Shown here piece by piece: positions 3,405 to 14,920 of a stretch of DNA of 44,565 bases. The translations under genes were made by a program, and so were the position numbers. The notes beneath the pieces were generated by a model that had not been told where the DNA came from, made no database searches, and saw only the letters and a list, made by a program, of their open reading frames with translations. How positions within the stretch are numbered: position 1 is the first letter of the stretch; every line of letters starts with the position of its first letter. This stretch comes from Acidobacteriota bacterium (GTDB lineage: Bacteria; Acidobacteriota; Vicinamibacteria; Vicinamibacterales; UBA8438): assembly GCA_009861545.1 (NCBI GenBank), contig VXME01000169.1, forward strand, positions 2,748 to 47,312, in the 5' to 3' direction.

Positions 3405-4304
3405 GTGTATACTACAGTCACGTTGCAAGAATCACTGAGCCTGGAGCCAGGCGGATCTCGGCAGCCCCTCCTACAGAGGATTGTGGACGCTCCCCTTTGG
3501 AAGCACCTGATCGTGTTCTTGGTCGTCGTCATTCTCTTCGGATGGATGTACTCCTGCCTGACGGTACACGGCCACGGCGTTGACAAGCCTGGACTTGGAT
3601 TCCTCGATGGAATCTACTTCAGTATCGTGACCGTAACGTCCTTGGGCTACGGCGACATATCCCCAGTTGGCCTCTCACGATTGATTGTCGGTCTGGAAGT
3701 GCTGTTCGGCCTCGCAATCATGGGGATCATGATTGCAAAAGTTACGTCGCGGCGGCTCTCCTACTACGTCCAGCGTTTGTTTGCTGCCGATGCACAGCGT
3801 TACCTGAACAGTTCTACGGACAGATTGGATACGATCCGCGAATCGCTAAATACCGCTGAGGCAATGGATGACATCTGGAACACGGTCGTGCGGCTCCATA
3901 CCGAGACGCGAGTGCTGCACGACTACATTGATCTTGAAAGCAAACAGCACGCTCTTTTTACGATCATTTCCGAGCACTCCGTGCGGCGTGTCGGAACAAG
4001 CCTAGAAGGAATCCTGTCTCAACTCACGCGGCTCCTCAGCCTGCCTACAGAGTTAAGATCACAGGCCAACCGCCAAACTGGGTTGCTAGCTCTCACGACA
4101 GTGCTAGACCGAATCGCATTACTAGTGCTAACGCAGTGCTCTGGTCAAGACTCGCTCGCATGCTTTCGCGTTGTCCGAGAAAACTGCAAGAAGATCCGGG
4201 ACAGTTTAGCATTGCCGCCTAGCGCAGTAGTGGGCGACCCTCCCAGCCAGAGAGTCCCCAGAGACCCCCAGCCAGAAGGTGGTGGAGTCGGTTCGAGGAG
4301 GTAA
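3405..4304 (+). CDS. two-transmembrane potassium channel (Ion_trans_2)
   Basis: This is a 299-residue membrane protein with the TM-pore-TM layout of prokaryotic K+ channels: helix 1 at about residues 35-51, a pore helix leading to the selectivity filter TVTSLGYGD (76-84), and helix 2 at about 93-111. GYGD is the hallmark of K+ selectivity. Residues 112-270 form a long, mostly helical cytoplasmic domain without the RCK Rossmann signature, so the gating ligand is unknown. The tail (PPSQRVPRDPQPEGGG) is disordered. The start at GTG 3405 is uncertain; GTG near 3483 (VDAPLWKHLIV) with AGAGGA upstream is an alternative. A GIY-YIG gene follows 24 nt downstream and may be co-transcribed. Confidence 0.82.
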   Translation: MYTTVTLQESLSLEPGGSRQPLLQRIVDAPLWKHLIVFLVVVILFGWMYSCLTVHGHGVDKPGLGFLDGIYFSIVTVTSLGYGDISPVGLSRLIVGLEVLFGLAIMGIMIAKVTSRRLSYYVQRLFAADAQRYLNSSTDRLDTIRESLNTAEAMDDIWNTVVRLHTETRVLHDYIDLESKQHALFTIISEHSVRRVGTSLEGILSQLTRLLSLPTELRSQANRQTGLLALTTVLDRIALLVLTQCSGQDSLACFRVVRENCKKIRDSLALPPSAVVGDPPSQRVPRDPQPEGGGVGSRR

Positions 4305-6872: not shown

Positions 6873-7772
6873 CTAGACGGCTATATTGCGCCGAAACTCC
6901 TCGCCTACAAACACCTTCATCAATCGAGCTAGCTTTAACAGTACAGCGTACACGTCCACTTCATTGACGTATAGCCTACCGTCTTCGCCTTGTGATGCCT
7001 TTGCTTTCTGCTGACTATTGGGGATTTTCAACCCCTGATCTTCGCCATATCTAAGCAACTGCCACAGGCCGTGAGGTAGACTGAACAGCAAGCTTTTGAA
7101 ACTCTCGTCGCCTACATTCTTGGCATCCAATCGCAAGCGCCTAGACGGTTCCAACGTGCCGCGGAGAGACACTAGGCTATGCTCTCTTGACGGAGGCACA
7201 AACTCCGAATCGTCATCAGTACGCCCATCGTCATCACTAGGGTAGTAGTAGCTCCCTCCCAACTCCCTGAGGAACAGCTCGCAAGCCTGGTAGGCATTGT
7301 ACGACGCTGAAAGTAATGGTGTGCCGGCAAGTCTTTCCGCTGCTTCCAGATAGTCCTCTGCAAGATAGCAGCGCGCGTATTCAGGTGAACCTAACTTCAT
7401 GTAGTTGCAGTTATCACAGACTAGTGACGAGCTATACACGACGTCGCCTTCGGTGTCGTCCCGGATTTCCAGCCTACCATTGCACCCTCTTCGCTTGCAG
7501 TGATCGTCTCTAGCTACTATTTCTTCAAGTCGAGCGCGGCGTCTTTTCTGCCTTTCTATAGATCTCCTGAACTCCGCCTCTATACCCGAGAAGTGCGCGA
7601 TAGCAGCGTCAAATTTGGGGAGACTGGCGGCTATCTGTGAGTAGTCTGGGAGACTGGCGGCTATCTGTGAGTAGTCTGGGAGACTGGCAAGCACATCGCT
7701 CACGTTGTCCCTGGCAAAGCGTTCTATATCCCGGGCCTGGGCTAGGAGTCGGTCAAAATCATCTCTTGTCAC
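6873..7772 (-). CDS. zinc-ribbon, HEPN-like protein; first gene of the operon
   Basis: This 299-residue protein starts at GTG 7772, chosen because GGAGGT sits 5 nt before it. Residues 27-53 hold a duplicated ten-residue unit (SLPDYSQIAA twice, then SLPKF). A coiled, Arg-rich stretch follows (60-85). A zinc ribbon comes next: C92-x4-C97 and C119-x2-C122. The second half is helical, with SASYNAYQACELFLRELGG resembling the helix of HEPN domains in which 'A.....A.EL.LK.L' recurs. I do not see the R-x4-6-H of catalytic HEPN RNases, so RNase activity is not supported. It leads a minus-strand operon of six genes. Confidence 0.62.
   Translation of the reverse strand: MTRDDFDRLLAQARDIERFARDNVSDVLASLPDYSQIAASLPDYSQIAASLPKFDAAIAHFSGIEAEFRRSIERQKRRRARLEEIVARDDHCKRRGCNGRLEIRDDTEGDVVYSSSLVCDNCNYMKLGSPEYARCYLAEDYLEAAERLAGTPLLSASYNAYQACELFLRELGGSYYYPSDDDGRTDDDSEFVPPSREHSLVSLRGTLEPSRRLRLDAKNVGDESFKSLLFSLPHGLWQLLRYGEDQGLKIPNSQQKAKASQGEDGRLYVNEVDVYAVLLKLARLMKVFVGEEFRRNIAV
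7621..7688. repeat. 30-bp in-frame tandem duplication
   Basis: Two exact copies of a 30-bp unit (7621-7650 and 7651-7680) are followed by the first 8 nt of a third. The unit is a multiple of three and codes for the ten-residue repeat in the zinc-ribbon protein, so changes in copy number would keep the frame. Confidence 0.9.
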
Positions 7773-7950: not shown

Positions 7951-8186
7951 CTAATCGGGCTCGCCAGCATAATAACTTCTGACGCTTTCGATGAGCTCTT
8001 CCGGCGAGAGGAGTTCGAATGGGCCGGAGACAGGGGTGTTGTCCCACCTGTCGAGAACCTCGTCGACCGTCGAGCCCGTCTCGCGAGCCTCCTTGATAGC
8101 CTGTCCGATAAAGGCCTTATATATAGAATCGTGGGTATTTCGGTGAAGTGGAACAGCGATTCCGGGGATCTGGACCTCGGTCGACA
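7951..8186 (-). pseudogene. hypothetical gene truncated by IS21 insertion
   Basis: The minus-strand frame ending at 7951 reads VQIPGIAVPLHRNTHDSIYK, AFIGQAIKEARETGSTVDEV and on to SVRSYYAGEPD. It looks like genuine coding sequence, with acidic helices and no low complexity. Upstream it runs straight into the left end of the IS21-family element at about 8187, and no start codon of its own survives. It is the 3' part of a small gene of unknown family. Confidence 0.5.
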
Positions 8187-8188
8187 CC

Positions 8189-8230
8189 CAAAACCGGCCA
8201 TTAGTGGACGGCTGAAAACCGGCCATTTCC
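8189..8230. repeat. left terminal repeats of the IS21-family element
   Basis: Two direct units sharing AAAACCGGCCATT are spaced 25 nt apart, as expected for the multiple transposase binding sites at IS21 ends. They match the right-end units at 14921-14962 in inverted orientation. Confidence 0.8.
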
Positions 8231-8284
8231 GATAGCGGCCCGAGACGTTGACGCGGGTCGGGAACTCGACGTTCCTGCCCCGGC

Positions 8285-8983
8285 ATGAGCAACGTCTTGA
8301 GCAAAGAGAAACGACAACAGATCCTCGCGCTGGGACGCCTCGGCTGGTCGCTGCGGCGGATCGAAGAGGCCACCGGGGTCCGGCGCGAGACCGCCAGCGG
8401 TTACCTGAAAGCGGCCGGCCTGACCGTGCGCGGCCGTGGCCGCCCACCCGCTCGTCCGGCAAATCCGGCCATTTCCTCGGAGGTGTCCACCGACTCTGCG
8501 CCGGCCACGACGGCTGGCAAGTGCACGGACGACACCGCGACCGTCGCCGCGCAGCGGCCCAGTCGAGCGCCGCAGGCGAGCGCGTGCGAGCCCTACCGCG
8601 AGCTGATCGTCGACGCGCTCGGCCGCGGGCGCAACGCCACGGCCATCTGGCAGGACCTGGTCGACGACCACGGTTTCCCGGCGGGCTATGCGAGCGTGCG
8701 GCGCTTCGTCTCGACCGTCCGGCAGCAGCCCGCCGTCGAGGCTCGGGCGGTGATCACCAGGGCCCGGGGGGAGGAAGCACAGGTTGACTACGGCGACGGA
8801 CCGATGGTCCGTGACCCTGACACCGGCAAGTACCGCCGGACACGGCTCTTCGTCCTGACCCTGGGCTATTCGCGCAAGGCCGTCCGGCTGCTGGTCCACC
8901 GCTCCAGCGCGCAGGTCTGGGCCGAGCTGCACGAGCGGGCGTTTCGCCGCCTGGGCGGCACCACCCGTGTCGTCGTGCTCGAC
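8285..8983 (+). pseudogene. istA: istA, N-terminal part (IS21-family transposase)
   Basis: From the ATG at 8285 (MSNVLSKEKRQQILALGRLG) the frame codes an N-terminal helix-turn-helix (LGWSLRRIEEATGVRRETAS, then GYLKAAG) and the start of the DDE catalytic core: EEAQVDYGDGP supplies the first Asp, and TRVVVLD supplies the second. The frame is broken at that second Asp codon by the RIT element, and the C-terminal half resumes at 12507. Joined in frame, the junction reads VVLD-NLKEG, which is the normal IS21 sequence. The product cannot be a working transposase. Confidence 0.88.
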
Positions 8984-9007
8984 TATGTTCCCGGGAACAT
9001 AGTCGAG
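8978..9007. repeat. 30-bp perfect palindrome at the left RIT junction
   Basis: CTCGACTATGTTCCC is followed at once by its own reverse complement, GGGAACATAGTCGAG. The outer six bases CTCGAC belong to istA and recur at the right junction (12501-12506), so the palindrome is built from the target hexamer plus RIT left-end sequence. This is a likely recombinase core site. Confidence 0.9.
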
Positions 9008-9034
9008 CTTATGTGCCCGCGCACGATATGTGGC
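9002..9034. repeat. RIT left outer inverted repeat
   Basis: The 33 bases from GTCGAGCTTATGTGCC to GATATGTGGC are an exact reverse complement of 12474-12506. The inner part overlaps the 30-bp palindrome by its GTCGAG. Confidence 0.93.
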
Positions 9035-9082
9035 GCTGCGGGTGGAGCGGCTCGGTGAAGCAAGGCTGTGGCGGCTTCCGAT

Positions 9083-9096
9083 GGCCACATAACGGT
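9083..9096. repeat. RIT left inner inverted repeat
   Basis: GGCCACATAACGGT is exactly inverted at 12414-12427, right after the ritC stop. It shares GCCACATA with the outer repeat, which suggests a second binding site for the same recombinase. Confidence 0.8.
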
Positions 9097-9151
9097 GAGC
9101 ACGTCAGCACGGGGATGATCGCCGAGCGCCGAGAGCGCAAGGAGGTTGTCC

Positions 9152-10420
9152 ATGCTGGAACGATGCTACGCCCGCCCGAAAACCGTCGACCGCATTCGGT
9201 CATCCTGGCTCGGTGCCGCCATCGAGCAGTACGCCACGTGGTTCCTGGAGCGTGGCTATTCCCCGAAGCATCTCGGTCGCGCGGTGCCGATCCTGCTCCG
9301 CTTCGGGACGTTCGCCTACGACCGGGGCGCGAGATGCTACGCGGAGCTTCCGCCCGTGGTGCGGCCGTTTGTGGAGTACTGGATTACCCGCCCGGACCAC
9401 CGTCGCGCCCCGGGACCCGTAAGGCCGCGGTTGGCGCAGGAGATCCGCCGGCCGATCGAGCAGATGCTCCGGCTGATCGTCCCGGGCTTCGTCGGCACGC
9501 AGCGCCCCGTACTGGCGACGCCGTTCATCGACCAAGCACCGGGCTTCTTCGCCTACCTGCGTGATGAGCGCGGCCTGCGCGCCGCCACGCTCACGGAGTA
9601 CACCCACCACCTGCGGCAGCTTGCTGCGTATCTGCGCGACCATCGGCTCGACGACCTGCGGGCGCTGTCGCCAGTGGTCATCAGTGGATTCCTGACCGAT
9701 CGCAGCCGGCATCTCTCACGCTCGGGAATCGCGTGTCGGTGTGTCGTGCTGCGCGTGTTCTTGCGGTACCTCCATCGCGAAGGGCTCGTCGCGCGGGACC
9801 TGAGTCGTACCGTCGAGACCCCACGGGTCTACCGTCTGGCTAAGGTGCCGCGGTCGATTCAGTGGGACGAGGTTCGACGCATGTTGGAGGCGGTGGATCG
9901 CCGCACCGTCGTGGGCCGGCGCGACTACGCGATGCTGCTCCTGCTCGTCACCTACGGCTTGCGGGCGCGGGAGGTCGCTGCGCTCACGCTCGACGACATC
10001 GACTGGTCCTATGCTCGCCTTCGCATCCCGGAGCGGAAGGCCGGCCACTCGACGGCCTACCCCCTGTCCCCGCTCGTGGGTGGAGCCATCATCGACTACC
10101 TGAAGTCCGGCCGACCGACGACGCAGTCGCGCCGCGTGTTCTTCCGAATCATCGCTCCGTGCAAGCCCATCGAGTCCCACGCGGTTTCCTGCCGCGTCAC
10201 CTACTACCTGCGGGAAGCGGGCATCGTCGTTCCCCGGCCCGGTTCGCACACGCTGCGCCATACCTGCGTACAGCGCCTCGTCGACGCGGGGTGGCCCCTG
10301 AAGTCGATCGGCGACTACGTCGGGCATCGCAGTTCCGCGTCGACCGAGGTCTACAGCAAGGTGGCCATCGAGACCCTCCGTGAGGTCGCCTGCGGCGATG
10401 GCGAGGAGGAGGTCGTATAA
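9152..10420 (+). CDS. ritA: RIT tyrosine recombinase A
   Basis: The start ATG 9152 (MLERCYARPKTVDRIRSSWL) has AAGGAGGT just upstream. The 422-residue protein has an N-terminal SAM-like DNA-binding region and the catalytic set of tyrosine recombinases: Arg in TYGLRAREVAAL, HTLRHT (H-x-x-R), the GHRS motif in the His/Trp position, and the nucleophile in STEVYSKV. The extra N-terminal segment makes it the largest of the trio. Its TAA stop (10418-10420) overlaps the expected start of ritB. In the RIT elements I know of, the three recombinases act together, but the exact division of labour is not settled. Confidence 0.88.
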   Translation: MLERCYARPKTVDRIRSSWLGAAIEQYATWFLERGYSPKHLGRAVPILLRFGTFAYDRGARCYAELPPVVRPFVEYWITRPDHRRAPGPVRPRLAQEIRRPIEQMLRLIVPGFVGTQRPVLATPFIDQAPGFFAYLRDERGLRAATLTEYTHHLRQLAAYLRDHRLDDLRALSPVVISGFLTDRSRHLSRSGIACRCVVLRVFLRYLHREGLVARDLSRTVETPRVYRLAKVPRSIQWDEVRRMLEAVDRRTVVGRRDYAMLLLLVTYGLRAREVAALTLDDIDWSYARLRIPERKAGHSTAYPLSPLVGGAIIDYLKSGRPTTQSRRVFFRIIAPCKPIESHAVSCRVTYYLREAGIVVPRPGSHTLRHTCVQRLVDAGWPLKSIGDYVGHRSSASTEVYSKVAIETLREVACGDGEEEVV

Positions 10421-11403
10421 GCCGCCTCTGGACCGGATTTCGGAGCGCCTGCACCGACGGGATACAGGCCTTCCTGGCGTACAAGCGCGCTCTCGGGCGG
10501 CAGTACCGGGCCGAGGAGAAGGCCTTGCGGCTCTTCGATCGCTTCCTTGCGGAGCATCGCATCACCACGGCCGCCGAGGTCACGCCCGTGATGATCGACG
10601 AGTTCCTCTCCTCCCGACCACGCCCGGCGCCGCGAAGCTACAACCACCTGCACGGGACCCTGGCCCGATTCTTCGACTGGATGATTCGCCATGAGCGTCT
10701 CCAGTGCTCCCCCGTGCGCTCGAAGCCGCGCCGCGGGACCCGCGTTCGCCTGCCGTTCCTCCTCGATCCCGCGGCCGCGCGGCGGCTCTTCAACGTGGCG
10801 GGTCAGTTACCGGACACCCGTTTCACAGCCTGCCGCGGGTCGAGCTTCCGCACCATCTTCACGCTGCTCTACGGCTTGGGCCTGCGGGTGGGGGAAGTCG
10901 AACGGTTGCGCATCGGCGACATCGACGCCACCCGGCGCGTGCTCCACATTCGGGACACGAAGTTCGCCAAGAGCCGTCTGGTGCCGTTCGGCCCGCGGAT
11001 CGACGCGGTGCTCACCGCGCATCTCGCGCGGCGCGCGCAGCAGCAGCTTCTCTCAGCCGAGATGCCCGTGTTCGCGAAGCGTAGCGGGCGACCGATCAGC
11101 GCCGTCGCCATCAGTCTGATGTTCCATCAGCTCGTGCCGCAACTGGAGCTGGTCGTTCCCGACGGCGCCGTCGGCCCGCGGGCCCACGACCTGCGCCATG
11201 CGTTTGCGACCCGCACGCTGACGCGATGGTACCGGAACGGAATCGACCCCCGCTCGCGGCTGTTGTCGCTCGCCACTTTCCTTGGACACGTGAATCCTGC
11301 CTCCACGGCCGTCTATCTCACGATGACGCCGGAGCTCTTGAGTCATGCGAGCGAGCGGTTTCGCACGTGGGCCGAGCCCGTCCTCGAGGAGGTGCCGCGA
11401 TGA
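10417..11403 (+). CDS. ritB: RIT tyrosine recombinase B, start codon changed to ATA
   Basis: Homologous-looking sequence begins at codon 10417 (ISRLWTGFRSACTDGIQAFL, then AYKRALGRQYRAEEKALRLF), immediately after GAGGAGGT at the right distance. The codon there is ATA, not ATG; the overlap with ritA is ATAA where ATGA would be expected, as at the ritB-ritC junction. No ATG or GTG start is seen near the true N-terminus, and the next usable codon (TTG 10525) would drop 36 residues of the N-terminal domain. The catalytic motifs are intact: GLGLRVGEVERL, HDLRHAFATR, GHVNPASTAVYLTM. The protein may be poorly made or initiate at ATA. Confidence 0.82.
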   Translation: MSRLWTGFRSACTDGIQAFLAYKRALGRQYRAEEKALRLFDRFLAEHRITTAAEVTPVMIDEFLSSRPRPAPRSYNHLHGTLARFFDWMIRHERLQCSPVRSKPRRGTRVRLPFLLDPAAARRLFNVAGQLPDTRFTACRGSSFRTIFTLLYGLGLRVGEVERLRIGDIDATRRVLHIRDTKFAKSRLVPFGPRIDAVLTAHLARRAQQQLLSAEMPVFAKRSGRPISAVAISLMFHQLVPQLELVVPDGAVGPRAHDLRHAFATRTLTRWYRNGIDPRSRLLSLATFLGHVNPASTAVYLTMTPELLSHASERFRTWAEPVLEEVPR

Positions 11404-12413
11404 CACCCTCGCTCGGTGCGCTGCTGCACGCGCTCCTGGTCGATGAGCTGCCGCTCCAGAGGGGCTTCCGCCCCGCTTCGATAAAGGCGTACCGGGACGG
11501 ACTACGCCTCTTTCTCACGTTCGTTGCCGCAGACCGGGCTTGCCGGCTGACGCAGCTCACCCCCGAGGACCTGACCGTCGAACGGGTCCAGCGTTTCCTG
11601 TTGCATCTCGAGGAGAAGCGGCACAATCACCGGCGTACCCGCAACCATCGACTCACGATCCTGCAGACCTTCTTCGAGTTTCTCGCGCAGCGGTGCCCCG
11701 AGCTGCTCGCGGTCGCACAGCGCGTCGCCGCGATTGCCGTCAAGCGTACGGCCCCAGCCGAGACTCGTTTCCTCGAGCGGGAGGAGATCGCTCAGCTCTT
11801 CCGCCGACTGCCCTCCGCCGGGCCCTACGCCCTCCGTGACCGGACCCTGTTGTTACTGCTCTACAACACCGGCGCCCGCGTGCAGGAAGTCGCCGACCTG
11901 CGCATCGCGGACCTCGACTTGCAGGGCCAGCCGAGTGTCCGACTGCACGGCAAGGGTGACAAATGGCGGACCTGTCCACTCTGGCCCCAGACGGCTCAGC
12001 TGCTGGAAGACCTGCTCCAGACCAGACGCCCCGCGCCATCGGCTACGATGCCCGTCTTCGTCTCCCGCAGCGCCCGTGCCCTCACACGCTTCGGGATCTA
12101 CAAGATCGTGCGTCGCCACACCCGCCATCTGGACAGCCTGGGCCCGCCGACCAGACAGCACATCAGCCCGCATGTCTTTCGACACACAGCGGCCGTCCAC
12201 CTCCTGGAAGCCGGAGTCGACGTCAACGTGATCCGCAGCTGGCTCGGCCACGTTCACCTCGACACGACCAACCGGTACGCCGAGATCACGATTCGCACGA
12301 AGCTGGCAGCCGTACAACTCTGTGAGCCCGTCGCAACCGCTGCGGATTCACCCCGCCGAAGATCTATTTGGCGCAACGACGAGGCGCTGCTGTCCTGGCT
12401 CGCTTCGCTGTGA
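11400..12413 (+). CDS. ritC: RIT tyrosine recombinase C
   Basis: ATG 11400 overlaps the ritB stop as ATGA and has GAGGAGGT upstream. The 337-residue protein has an N-terminal core-binding domain (about 1-110) and a catalytic domain with Arg in NTGARVQEVADL, Lys in LHGKGDKWR, HVFRHT and GHVHLDTTNRYAEI with the nucleophilic Tyr. It is the most XerC/D-like of the three. The right inner and outer repeats follow within 100 nt. Confidence 0.9.
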   Translation: MTPSLGALLHALLVDELPLQRGFRPASIKAYRDGLRLFLTFVAADRACRLTQLTPEDLTVERVQRFLLHLEEKRHNHRRTRNHRLTILQTFFEFLAQRCPELLAVAQRVAAIAVKRTAPAETRFLEREEIAQLFRRLPSAGPYALRDRTLLLLLYNTGARVQEVADLRIADLDLQGQPSVRLHGKGDKWRTCPLWPQTAQLLEDLLQTRRPAPSATMPVFVSRSARALTRFGIYKIVRRHTRHLDSLGPPTRQHISPHVFRHTAAVHLLEAGVDVNVIRSWLGHVHLDTTNRYAEITIRTKLAAVQLCEPVATAADSPRRRSIWRNDEALLSWLASL

Positions 12414-12427
12414 ACCGTTATGTGGCC
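12414..12427. repeat. RIT right inner inverted repeat
   Basis: ACCGTTATGTGGCC is the exact reverse complement of 9083-9096 and starts at the base after the ritC stop codon. Confidence 0.8.
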
Positions 12428-12473
12428 GCCCGCTCGAGGTCCGCCTCGCAGAGCTTCGCCCGGTACACCCACG

Positions 12474-12506
12474 GCCACATATCGTGCGCGGGCACATAAG
12501 CTCGAC
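12474..12506. repeat. RIT right outer inverted repeat
   Basis: This is an exact 33-bp reverse complement of 9002-9034, ending in CTCGAC, the hexamer that also precedes the left end. The istA reading frame resumes directly after it with AACCTCAAGGAGGGC. Confidence 0.93.
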
Positions 12507-13399
12507 AACCTCAAGGAGGGCGTCCTCGCCCCGGACATCTACGACCCGACGCTGAATCCGCTCTACCGCGACGTGGTCGCCCACTACGGCGTCGTCGCCC
12601 TGCCGTGTCGCGTCCGCGATCCCGATCGGAAGGCAAGGTCGAAGCCAGTGTCGGACACACGAAAAGGACGCCGCTGCGCGGCCTCCGCTTCGAGCACCTC
12701 GACGACGGCCAGGCATACCTGGACCGCTGGGACCGGCGCTGGGCCGACACCCGCATCCACGGAACGACCAAGCGCCAGGTCGCCGCCATGTTCGAGGAAG
12801 AACGCCCCGCGCTCGGTCCGTTGCCCATCGAGCCGTTCCGCTACTACCAGTACGGCCGCCGCAGTGTGCATCTGGACGGTTGCGTCGAGGTCGCCTCGGC
12901 CTACTACTCGGCGCCGCCCGGATGGATCGGACGCCGCGTCGACGTTCAGTGGGACGACATCCACGTCCGCCTCCTCGACCCGAGCACCGGCCAGCTGCTG
13001 CGCGAGCACCTGCGCACAAAGCGCGGCTGGCATCGCATCGCCGACGACGACCGGCCCACTCGCACCCCGCCGAAGACCCTCGCCCTGCTCGCCGCCGCCA
13101 AGCGGGCCGGCCCCGCCATCTCCACCGTCTGCGACCACATCCACCGGCATGAGGGCGCCGCCGGCGTCCGACGCATCCTCGGCGTCCTCTCCCTCGTCAA
13201 GAAGCACGGGGCCGCCGTCGTCGAACACGCCGCTACCGGCGCACTCGAACTCGGCGTGCCCACCTACCGCTTCCTGAAACGCTTCCTCGACCGCCATCGC
13301 GTCGCGCCGCCGCTGTCGTTGCGCCAGGTCGACCCGCTCATCCGCGAACTGACCGTCTACCGCGATCTGATCGACCGCAGAACAGGAGACCCTTCATGA
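12507..13399 (+). pseudogene. istA: istA, C-terminal part, with an additional frameshift
   Basis: The sequence resumes as NLKEGVLAPDIYDPTLNPLY, then RDVVAHYG, and reaches DPDRK near 12630. There one G appears to be missing (AAGGCAAGG where AAGGGCAAGG would give RKGKVEAS), and the reading continues in another frame as KVEASVGHTKRTPLRGLRFE, including the catalytic Glu, to the stop at 13397-13399. So istA carries two independent lesions: the RIT insertion and a 1-nt deletion in a G run. The stop overlaps istB as ATGA. Confidence 0.85.
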
Positions 13400-14157
13400 A
13401 TCTCGTCGAACTCGACCAGGCGCTGCGAAAGCTGCGCCTCTCCGGCATGGCCAACGTCCTCGAAACCCGCCTGCTCCAGGCCCAGACCGAGCAGATGGCC
13501 CCTATCGACCTGCTCGCCGCGCTCGTCTCCGACGAGCTCCAGCGCCGCGAGGACCGCCTGCTCGAACGCCGGCACAAGCAGGCCCGATTCCGGGACCCCG
13601 ACCGCGCGCTCGACGGCTTCGACTTCGACTTCAACAAGAAGATCAACGGCGCGCTCGTCTTCGAGCTCGCCACCGCACGCTTCATCGCAAAGCGCGAGGA
13701 CGTTTTGCTCATCGGCCAGCCCGGTACCGGCAAGAGCCACCTCGCCCAGGCCATCGGCCGCGCCGGCATCCAGCAGGGCTATCGCGTCCTCTACCGCGAA
13801 ACCCACACCTTCCTCGAAGAACTCGCCGAGGCGACGCTCGCCGAGACCCGCAAGGACTACCTCGCCGAACTCGCCCGCGCGCACCTGCTCATCATCGACG
13901 ACCTCGGCATGCGCAAGCTGCCACACACCGCCGCCGAGGACCTGCTCGAGCTGATCATGCGCCGTTACGAGCGGGCCTCGACGATGCTCACCTCCAACCG
14001 GCCGGTCGACGAGTGGGGCAAGCTGCTCGGCGACACCGCCGCGGTCACCGCGCTGCTCGACCGGCTCCTGCATCACGCACACGTGCTCAAGTGCGGGCCG
14101 CGCAGTTGGCGCACCCGGGTGCGGACCACCTTGATAAAGTCGACGGGAGGCGCGTAA
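13396..14157 (+). CDS. istB: IS21-family helper ATPase IstB
   Basis: This is a 253-residue AAA+ ATPase with a complete Walker A (GQPGTGKSH) and Walker B (LLIIDDLG), the R-rich DELQRREDRLLERR segment, and the family's C-terminal LLHHAHVLKCGPRSWR. IstB binds DNA and helps IstA choose and engage the target. It is intact in length and overlaps istA by ATGA. Since istA is broken, this copy could act only on related elements elsewhere. Confidence 0.93.
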   Translation: MNLVELDQALRKLRLSGMANVLETRLLQAQTEQMAPIDLLAALVSDELQRREDRLLERRHKQARFRDPDRALDGFDFDFNKKINGALVFELATARFIAKREDVLLIGQPGTGKSHLAQAIGRAGIQQGYRVLYRETHTFLEELAEATLAETRKDYLAELARAHLLIIDDLGMRKLPHTAAEDLLELIMRRYERASTMLTSNRPVDEWGKLLGDTAAVTALLDRLLHHAHVLKCGPRSWRTRVRTTLIKSTGGA

Positions 14158-14920
14158 CCGGTGCGGAGTCGGTGGCTCATCCGGCGCTTTCGCACCGGGT
14201 CGCAGTCCAGACCCCGTGGGCACGTTTCCTCCACCCCCGATCCGGTAGCCGGCGTTCGGCGGGCGTCCGAAGGCGTCCGCAGCCTTCCGCCAGTTGCCCC
14301 GGTGTTGCACAGCGGCGCGGAGGATTCGCGCGCGGCCGAGCGTCAACGCCCATCCGGACGTGGTCCGCGCGCGCGAGAGCACGGCCTCCAGGCTCGCGCG
14401 GCGCAACTACCGACTCCGACCGTCCCCACCGCCGCCGCGTGCGCCAGACGAGCCTTCCGCGGCACTCGAGTGGTCGCTCGACGCAACGCCCTTTCCCGCT
14501 CGTCGTCGTCGACCACACCGTCCGGCCCAGCCCGGCCGTTGCGTCTCGCGAGCGTACCCCGGCCGGGTATGACCAACACCGACGTCCGGCTCGGAACCCA
14601 CCCGGCAGACCGGACCAGACAAGGCCCTCGCTGCCGCTCGGAACATTTGCCTCGCGCACGCTGTCGCGGACCAACGCGAACGCATACACCGATGCCGATG
14701 ACAACCGAGCGGCGGGTCTGTCGCCACGCTTGCGCCTCGATCACTCGGCCGACGGGTTCGCGACCGCAGAGTTGCTCGAGCAGGTCTGCGATCTGGATCT
14801 GTCGGTACTGGAGGCTGTCGAGCTGCCCAGGGGCTTCGGGTGTGACGGCTACCGCGCCGGCAAACACCTTGCCAACAGAGGACGCCGTGAAGTAGATCTC
14901 AACTCCAGTCTCGGGCCGCC
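14158..14920. other. non-coding tail of the IS21-family element
   Basis: About 760 nt lie between istB and the right terminal repeats. All long open frames overlap each other and have GC-driven, Arg/Pro/Ser-rich translations. I see no recognisable domain, no ribosome binding site and no RNA gene. It may be a decayed passenger or a piece of captured flanking DNA. Confidence 0.5.

Follow-up and report, generated by a model that had tools for sequence, protein, structure and literature searches.

RIT elements are described in the openly available parts of the reports cited here as three adjacent, overlapping Xer-like recombinase genes within about 3.5 kb, bounded by 28-34 bp inverted repeats and an overlapping palindrome (PMC3414803; PMC10214605). 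Among their products, RitA has two core-binding domains and RitC has an extra C-terminal helix (PMC8138268). Earlier RITs were found in IS66 tnpA, a Tn6049-type transposase gene and radC (PMC3414803; PMC2864759), and the target specificity of the class is marked as not tested in a 2023 survey (PMC10214605). The SE, GInt and Tn554 families resemble RITs in having several tyrosine recombinases and in being site-specific, but differ in carrying extra non-recombinase genes, either Tfp and Srap or TnpC (PMC10214605; PMC5385486). SEs, whose sites are bcp, insJ of IS3 and yjjN, and Tn554 have a 6-bp fingerprint and footprint at their two ends, and copy-out is the favoured mechanism for them (PMC10214605). 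In this study, a window of 44,565 nucleotides of contig VXME01000169.1, from an Acidobacteriota bacterium (UBA8438), was analysed. It holds a 3,523-bp RIT element (8984-12506, the insert together with one hexamer) that splits istA, the transposase gene of an IS21 insertion sequence (IS), after the codon for the second catalytic Asp. The insert is very probably a RIT of a clade that attaches at this Asp codon, followed by an Asn codon, in DDE transposase genes, chiefly istA of IS21, and the preference for the istA Asp site is a property of the window's clade. The element shares the gene trio, the size, the ends and the location in a transposon gene with known RITs; it differs from them in that its clade is tied to one codon, follows a rule for its end hexamers and inserts in two orientations.

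The gene trio, the size of about 3.5 kb, the inverted repeats of the expected length and the end palindrome all place the insert in the RIT class. Only three genes, all on the forward strand, lie between the inverted repeats, with no cargo or control gene: ritA (9152..10420, 422 aa; PF00589, 5.7e-26, and PF02899), whose ATG start is preceded by a ribosome-binding-like AGGAGG; ritB (10417..11403, 328 aa; PF00589, 1.2e-20); and ritC (11400..12413, 337 aa; PF00589, 6.6e-32). These tyrosine recombinase genes are adjacent with 4-bp overlaps, which read ATGA between ritB and ritC and ATAA, not ATGA, between ritA and ritB. The catalytic residues R...H-x-x-R...Y are present in all three proteins; those of RitC and RitB are invariant in the alignments, and those of RitA were judged by eye from the translation. 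The Tfp/GinC and Srap/GinD genes that belong to the four-gene set of SE and GInt are absent from the window element. On the palindrome (P) side, a CTCGAC hexamer (H1, 8978..8983, forward strand), which is element-borne by the family rule set out below, is followed by an 18-bp perfect palindrome, TATGTTCCCGGGAACATA (8984..9001, without a defined strand), and by the left 33-bp terminal inverted repeat (9002..9034, forward strand). The first 6 bp of this repeat are the inner hexamer H2, the reverse complement of CTCGAC, and the palindrome together with both adjoining hexamers forms a 30-bp palindrome (8978-9007). On the other (N) side, the right 33-bp terminal inverted repeat (12474..12506, reverse strand) has at its end the hexamer H3, again CTCGAC (12501..12506, forward strand), which comprises the x-Asp codons and is the resident target hexamer by the same rule.

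The host of the RIT is like other IS21 elements in carrying istA with a DDE core (NF033546) and the istB ATPase gene (NF038214), but differs in being RIT-split, frameshifted and devoid of a right terminal repeat. Its 5' part (8175..8983, forward strand), with the terminal region from about 8175, matches an uninterrupted relative at 91% from position 8175 and the NCBIfam IS21 transposase profile, and the istA codons through the catalytic Asp occupy 8285-8983 (forward strand). The 3' part of istA, beginning NLKEG, lies at 12507..13399 (forward strand) and is frameshifted relative to intact relatives; it is followed by istB, which encodes the IS21 helper ATPase (13396..14157, forward strand, 253 aa; NF038214, 3.5e-75). 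The initial annotation of this DNA had placed the break at VVLD/NLKEG, in the motif of the second catalytic Asp, flanked by the hexamer CTCGAC. Both points were confirmed: the flanks joined with one hexamer read ...RRLGGTTRVVVLD|NLKEGVLAPDIYDPT... in frame (VVLD|NLKEG), the NF033546 profile covers the 5' half up to the Asp at profile position 184, the Pfam rve match of the same half stops at profile position 73 of 102, and the two hexamers directly border the insert. The further claim that removal of the insert and one hexamer restores the frame precisely holds across the junction itself; it fails downstream, where istA is frameshifted within about 130 bp. A right terminal repeat of the IS21 was searched for at 14050-14500 and not found. 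Uninterrupted copies that define the empty site, which the initial annotation had proposed to look for, do exist. In L153, from a genome of the same genus (G003; loci of this study are given L numbers), both flanks of the insert have matches (91% and 95%) that adjoin directly at 2856/2857, where the empty site reads CTCGAC AACCTC, and L156, L157 and L146 are likewise uninterrupted at the Asp site. Intact copies exist elsewhere, unlike the worn copy in the window.

The suggestion that IS21 copies serve as repeated landing sites was borne out by a survey of relatives. The RitC of the window, aligned with four plasmid relatives, was the query with which a genome collection was scanned, and the sample consisted of the best 80 of 398 stretches encoding RitC relatives, picked without regard to their flanks; the ends were located via the palindrome and inverted repeats, and the flanks were then classified. 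In 47 of the 80 loci the insertion falls in istA at the codon of the second catalytic Asp; in six others (L024, L028, L033, L040, L048 and L056) it falls at the corresponding Asp of a different rve-type DDE transposase, which brings the total to 53 of 80. Five loci were ambiguous (L037, L052, L077, L081 and L092), and 15 had no usable flank. Of the halves scanned with the NCBIfam IS21 profile, 40 of 52 upstream and 38 of 44 downstream gave a match. Pfam rve stopped matching at profile position 73 of 102 in three of four tested halves, and at 70 in L028. L040 and L048 had no support from the IstA hidden Markov model (HMM); L048 matched Pfam rve, and L040, with no Pfam match, was placed by eye. 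At a threshold of 70% identity the upstream istA halves fell into 31 lineages, and at 80% all 34 stood apart, so the istA insertions are largely independent. The same istA codon is targeted in many lineages, in either orientation, with the palindrome and a hexamer on the 5' side of the target. Beyond this sample, five plasmid loci that were used while the rule was found (L007-L011, L007 on a short peptide) also conform, as do five of six loci found later by RitC (L199, L200, L201, L202 and L204) and two found through their resemblance to the IS21 flank (L143 and L155); no istA was seen at the sixth of the later RitC loci, L203. The records of the istA-targeting relatives, mostly metagenome-assembled genomes (MAGs), are titled Acidobacteriota, Actinomycetota, Pseudomonadota, Planctomycetota, Verrucomicrobiota, Nitrospinota and others. 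A scan of viral contigs for RitC relatives returned distant recombinases only. Most further matches of a search by phylum were distant clades whose ends were pattern-scanned, the target being classified for L179 and L180 only.

The sequence CTCGAC is not itself required. When 29 istA sites were compared, no bases were fully fixed other than the GA of the hexamer and the AA that follows the hexamer, and the common core of the site is NNNGAY|AAY, near-matches to which are sometimes used elsewhere. The arrangement around this core is regular. The P side has the order H1, 18-bp palindrome, H2 and inverted repeat, the N side has the repeat and then H3, and the P side faces the 5' half of istA regardless of the direction of the rit genes. 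These genes lay on the same strand as the target in 28 loci and on the opposite strand in 28, in a count from which loci whose ends were alike or unclear are excluded. The CTCGAC pair of the window could be taken for a target-site duplication, and this was rejected as a general reading because the end hexamers differ: their first 5 nt were the same in 22 and different in 15 of the 37 loci with both ends read. For two elements of the family, an intact relative of the host was read. The intact ISBmu3 on a Burkholderia plasmid (L158) has CCCGAC, which is the H3 of L008, the H1 of which is TTCGAT; and an intact Rhizobium relative (L159) has CCGGAT, which is the H3 of L011, the H1 of which is TACGAT. 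In both cases, therefore, the far-end hexamer H3 is the resident one and the P-side hexamer H1 is the incoming one. The window is uninformative on this 6-bp rule, its two hexamers being equal. Furthermore, the final base of H1 is almost always T or A, whereas that of H3 is mostly C, and the exchange accordingly seems to stop before that base. H2, which is non-coding, reads NNNGA in 52 of 55 P sides, as expected if it derives from earlier Asp-codon sites.

These features suggest how the element might move. If its ends were circularised, the window element would form an 84-bp perfect palindrome, as computed on paper. RitA, RitB and RitC would recombine this symmetric circle junction with the istA site via the hexamer, and since the junction would offer two equivalent inverted core sites, the element could enter either way round; the palindromic junction would thus explain the two-way entry. 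The P-side hexamer and the inner hexamer would be remnants of previous landing sites. The insertion disrupts the transposase, and the element thus occupies a site that is non-essential, widespread and highly conserved. The circle, the strand exchange and the roles of the three enzymes are predicted here from sequence comparison, and the mobility of the clade is presumed on the same grounds. Indirect hints of mobility are the empty sites in relatives and L016, an element 99.6% identical to that of the window (14 mismatches in 3,495 bp) whose end hexamer is TTGGAC instead. The contig of L016 is filed under a Chloroflexota MAG, the binning of which may be wrong, and a jump between phyla is not claimed.

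Strand-biased copy-out, as in SE elements and Tn554, is a possible though somewhat doubtful substitute for the excision and integration of a double-stranded circle. The RITs agree with SEs in that one end has the resident hexamer and the other a foreign one (PMC10214605). However, SEs need four genes and an imperfect-repeat junction around a 6-bp spacer (PMC10214605), whereas three genes, a long palindrome and two hexamers are found here, and in the openly available parts of the two sources a long junction palindrome such as that of the window RIT is not described for SE, GInt or Tn554 (PMC10214605; PMC5385486). It is very unlikely that the insertion is retained for a benefit, whether by restraining IS21 or by acting as a regulated istA switch that can be excised. 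The site is precise, and hexamer-mediated excision could restore an open junction; but the istA of the window is frameshifted and the IS is without its right end, so restoration would yield no working IS, and no control or cargo gene is present. A single ancient IS21::RIT composite, spread by descent so that the shared codon would reflect one event, is highly improbable. In the 84-row clade of the RitC tree istA is hit more often than any other target, which speaks for this account, but it was rejected on four grounds: the orientations are equal (28:28), the istA halves upstream of the insertions remain 34 distinct sequences at 80% identity, intact IS copies stand beside interrupted ones (L153 and the window; L158 and L008; L159 and L011), and the end hexamers are unequal in 15 of 37 loci. 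Near-random insertion, with survival only of copies in dispensable transposase genes, has next to no probability, for although such genes are abundant and RITs were earlier found in several transposon genes (PMC3414803; PMC2864759), survival bias cannot select one codon of about 500 in istA, and in istA loci the downstream end reads GAY and then AA in 45 cases of 48 (the exceptions being a contig end and two irregular ends), so that the shared codon rejects it for the window's clade.

Attachment at the Asp codon, with movement through a circle, has several observations to contend with. In the window, ritB has no standard start codon: it begins with ATA (10417-10419), where L007, L008, L009, L011 and L016 have ATG and hence the overlap ATGA, and the window copy may produce little RitB. 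Four of the 47 istA assignments (L026, L045, L053 and L089) rest on short peptides with no HMM support. The palindrome is at both ends in L044, L048 and L063 and at neither in L021, L045, L054 and L083, and the ends of L050 and L064 are irregular. In seven of the 80 loci the target is not an rve-type DDE gene; these are L078 in an IS110, L031 in a dehydratase gene, L067 and L070 in ParB-like genes (by eye), and L019, L020 and L023. Lastly, the non-IS21 DDE sites rank poorly with a position matrix that was built at three widths from 29 istA sites, omitting L032 (no downstream flank) and L050 (irregular ends); with the middle matrix, L028 is 178 of 3578, L024 is 31st and L033 is 26th, and the RITs at these three loci may have altered specificity.

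The like-ended contigs are probably assembly collapses of multicopy elements present in both orientations, inversion between copies being a possible alternative. Those with two palindromes show two 5' halves of the target, and those with none show two 3' halves. The initial annotation had held that RIT copies in unrelated targets without a CTCGAC-like core would speak against a preference for this site. Such copies were found in part, with CTCGGC at L031 (where H3 is CTCGGC and H1 is ATCGAT), CTGCAC at L078, the ParB-like targets of L067 and L070, and distant clades in istB and other genes; they limit the preference to the window's clade and the core NNNGAY|AAY. With the same matrix the IS110 site ranks 1 of 3554-3590 at all three widths; the site in the dehydratase gene is 5 of 3578, or 21 of 3554 at the greatest width, and both sites accordingly look like near-matches. 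The feature recognised would appear to be the DNA sequence and not the gene. L019, L020 and L023 are related RITs in a gene reading QVEYCDNLIF (YCDNLIF), again at a D-N codon pair.

With the attachment proposed here, RITs gain a precise, testable site and a predicted circle junction, and the safe harbour of one mobile element would be the catalytic codon of rival elements. The conservation that keeps the transposase functional would, from Acidobacteriota to Actinomycetota, also preserve an open landing site, and the inner hexamer H2 may record earlier landing sites in readable form. Inteins and introns in active-site motifs likewise occupy the most conserved codons of enzymes, but these are removed from RNA or protein, whereas a RIT undergoes no such removal and is expected to disrupt its target gene. 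A set of site-specific recombinases with a short, widespread DNA target would also have value as a tool. No statement of a target rule for RITs was found in the openly available literature, a scope beyond which Ricker 2013 and Van Houdt 2009 lie, and relative to that literature the istA-Asp rule appears to be new.

A broader habit is hinted at by the insertions outside rve-type genes and by RIT clades further removed from that of the window. Among 543 plasmid records, 19 more distant RITs were read (L012 and L160-L177), with no target settled for eight (L164, L165, L166, L170, L172, L173, L175 and L177). L012, L160, L163 and L176 are inserted in istB exactly behind the codon for the first Asp of Walker B, residue 168, at which the alignment to IstB is broken, and they form one clade with a support of 100 in a quick RitC tree. 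In L167 and L171 the zinc motif of an ArdC-like gene is split at HEL, and the target is a strawberry-notch (sno) gene in L161 and L162 and IS66 tnpB in L174; these ArdC-like, sno and tnpB motifs were read by eye with annotation, and L168 and L169 were called sno from neighbouring annotation only. It is an evenly balanced question whether the RIT class as a whole consists of parasites of active-site codons, each clade being attached to the most conserved motif of a gene of other mobile elements. The tallies behind this proposal are four of four read at the Walker B Asp of istB, two of two at HEL of the ArdC-like gene, and the motifs of sno and IS66 tnpB. If true, the habit would supply the class with harmless targets that cross phyla.

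Several minor observations concern the relatives and surroundings of the element. The palindrome of L163 and L176 is on the 3' side of the istB target. A second, distant RIT occurs in the window's own genome (L013, G000:C34:3000-11675); its 72-bp inverted repeats contain a 32-bp palindrome at both ends, and its flanks look non-coding. The istA of L153, which is intact at the Asp, is split at the KGKVE motif by another element of about 3.35 kb with two genes (L153:2983-6335), one of which reads like a large serine recombinase. The KGKVE motif is presumably the one bearing the catalytic Glu, and a second kind of element may thus exploit a second catalytic motif of istA. Upstream of the IS21 in the window, short units of the GGGAGACTGGC type are repeated at 7617-7688.

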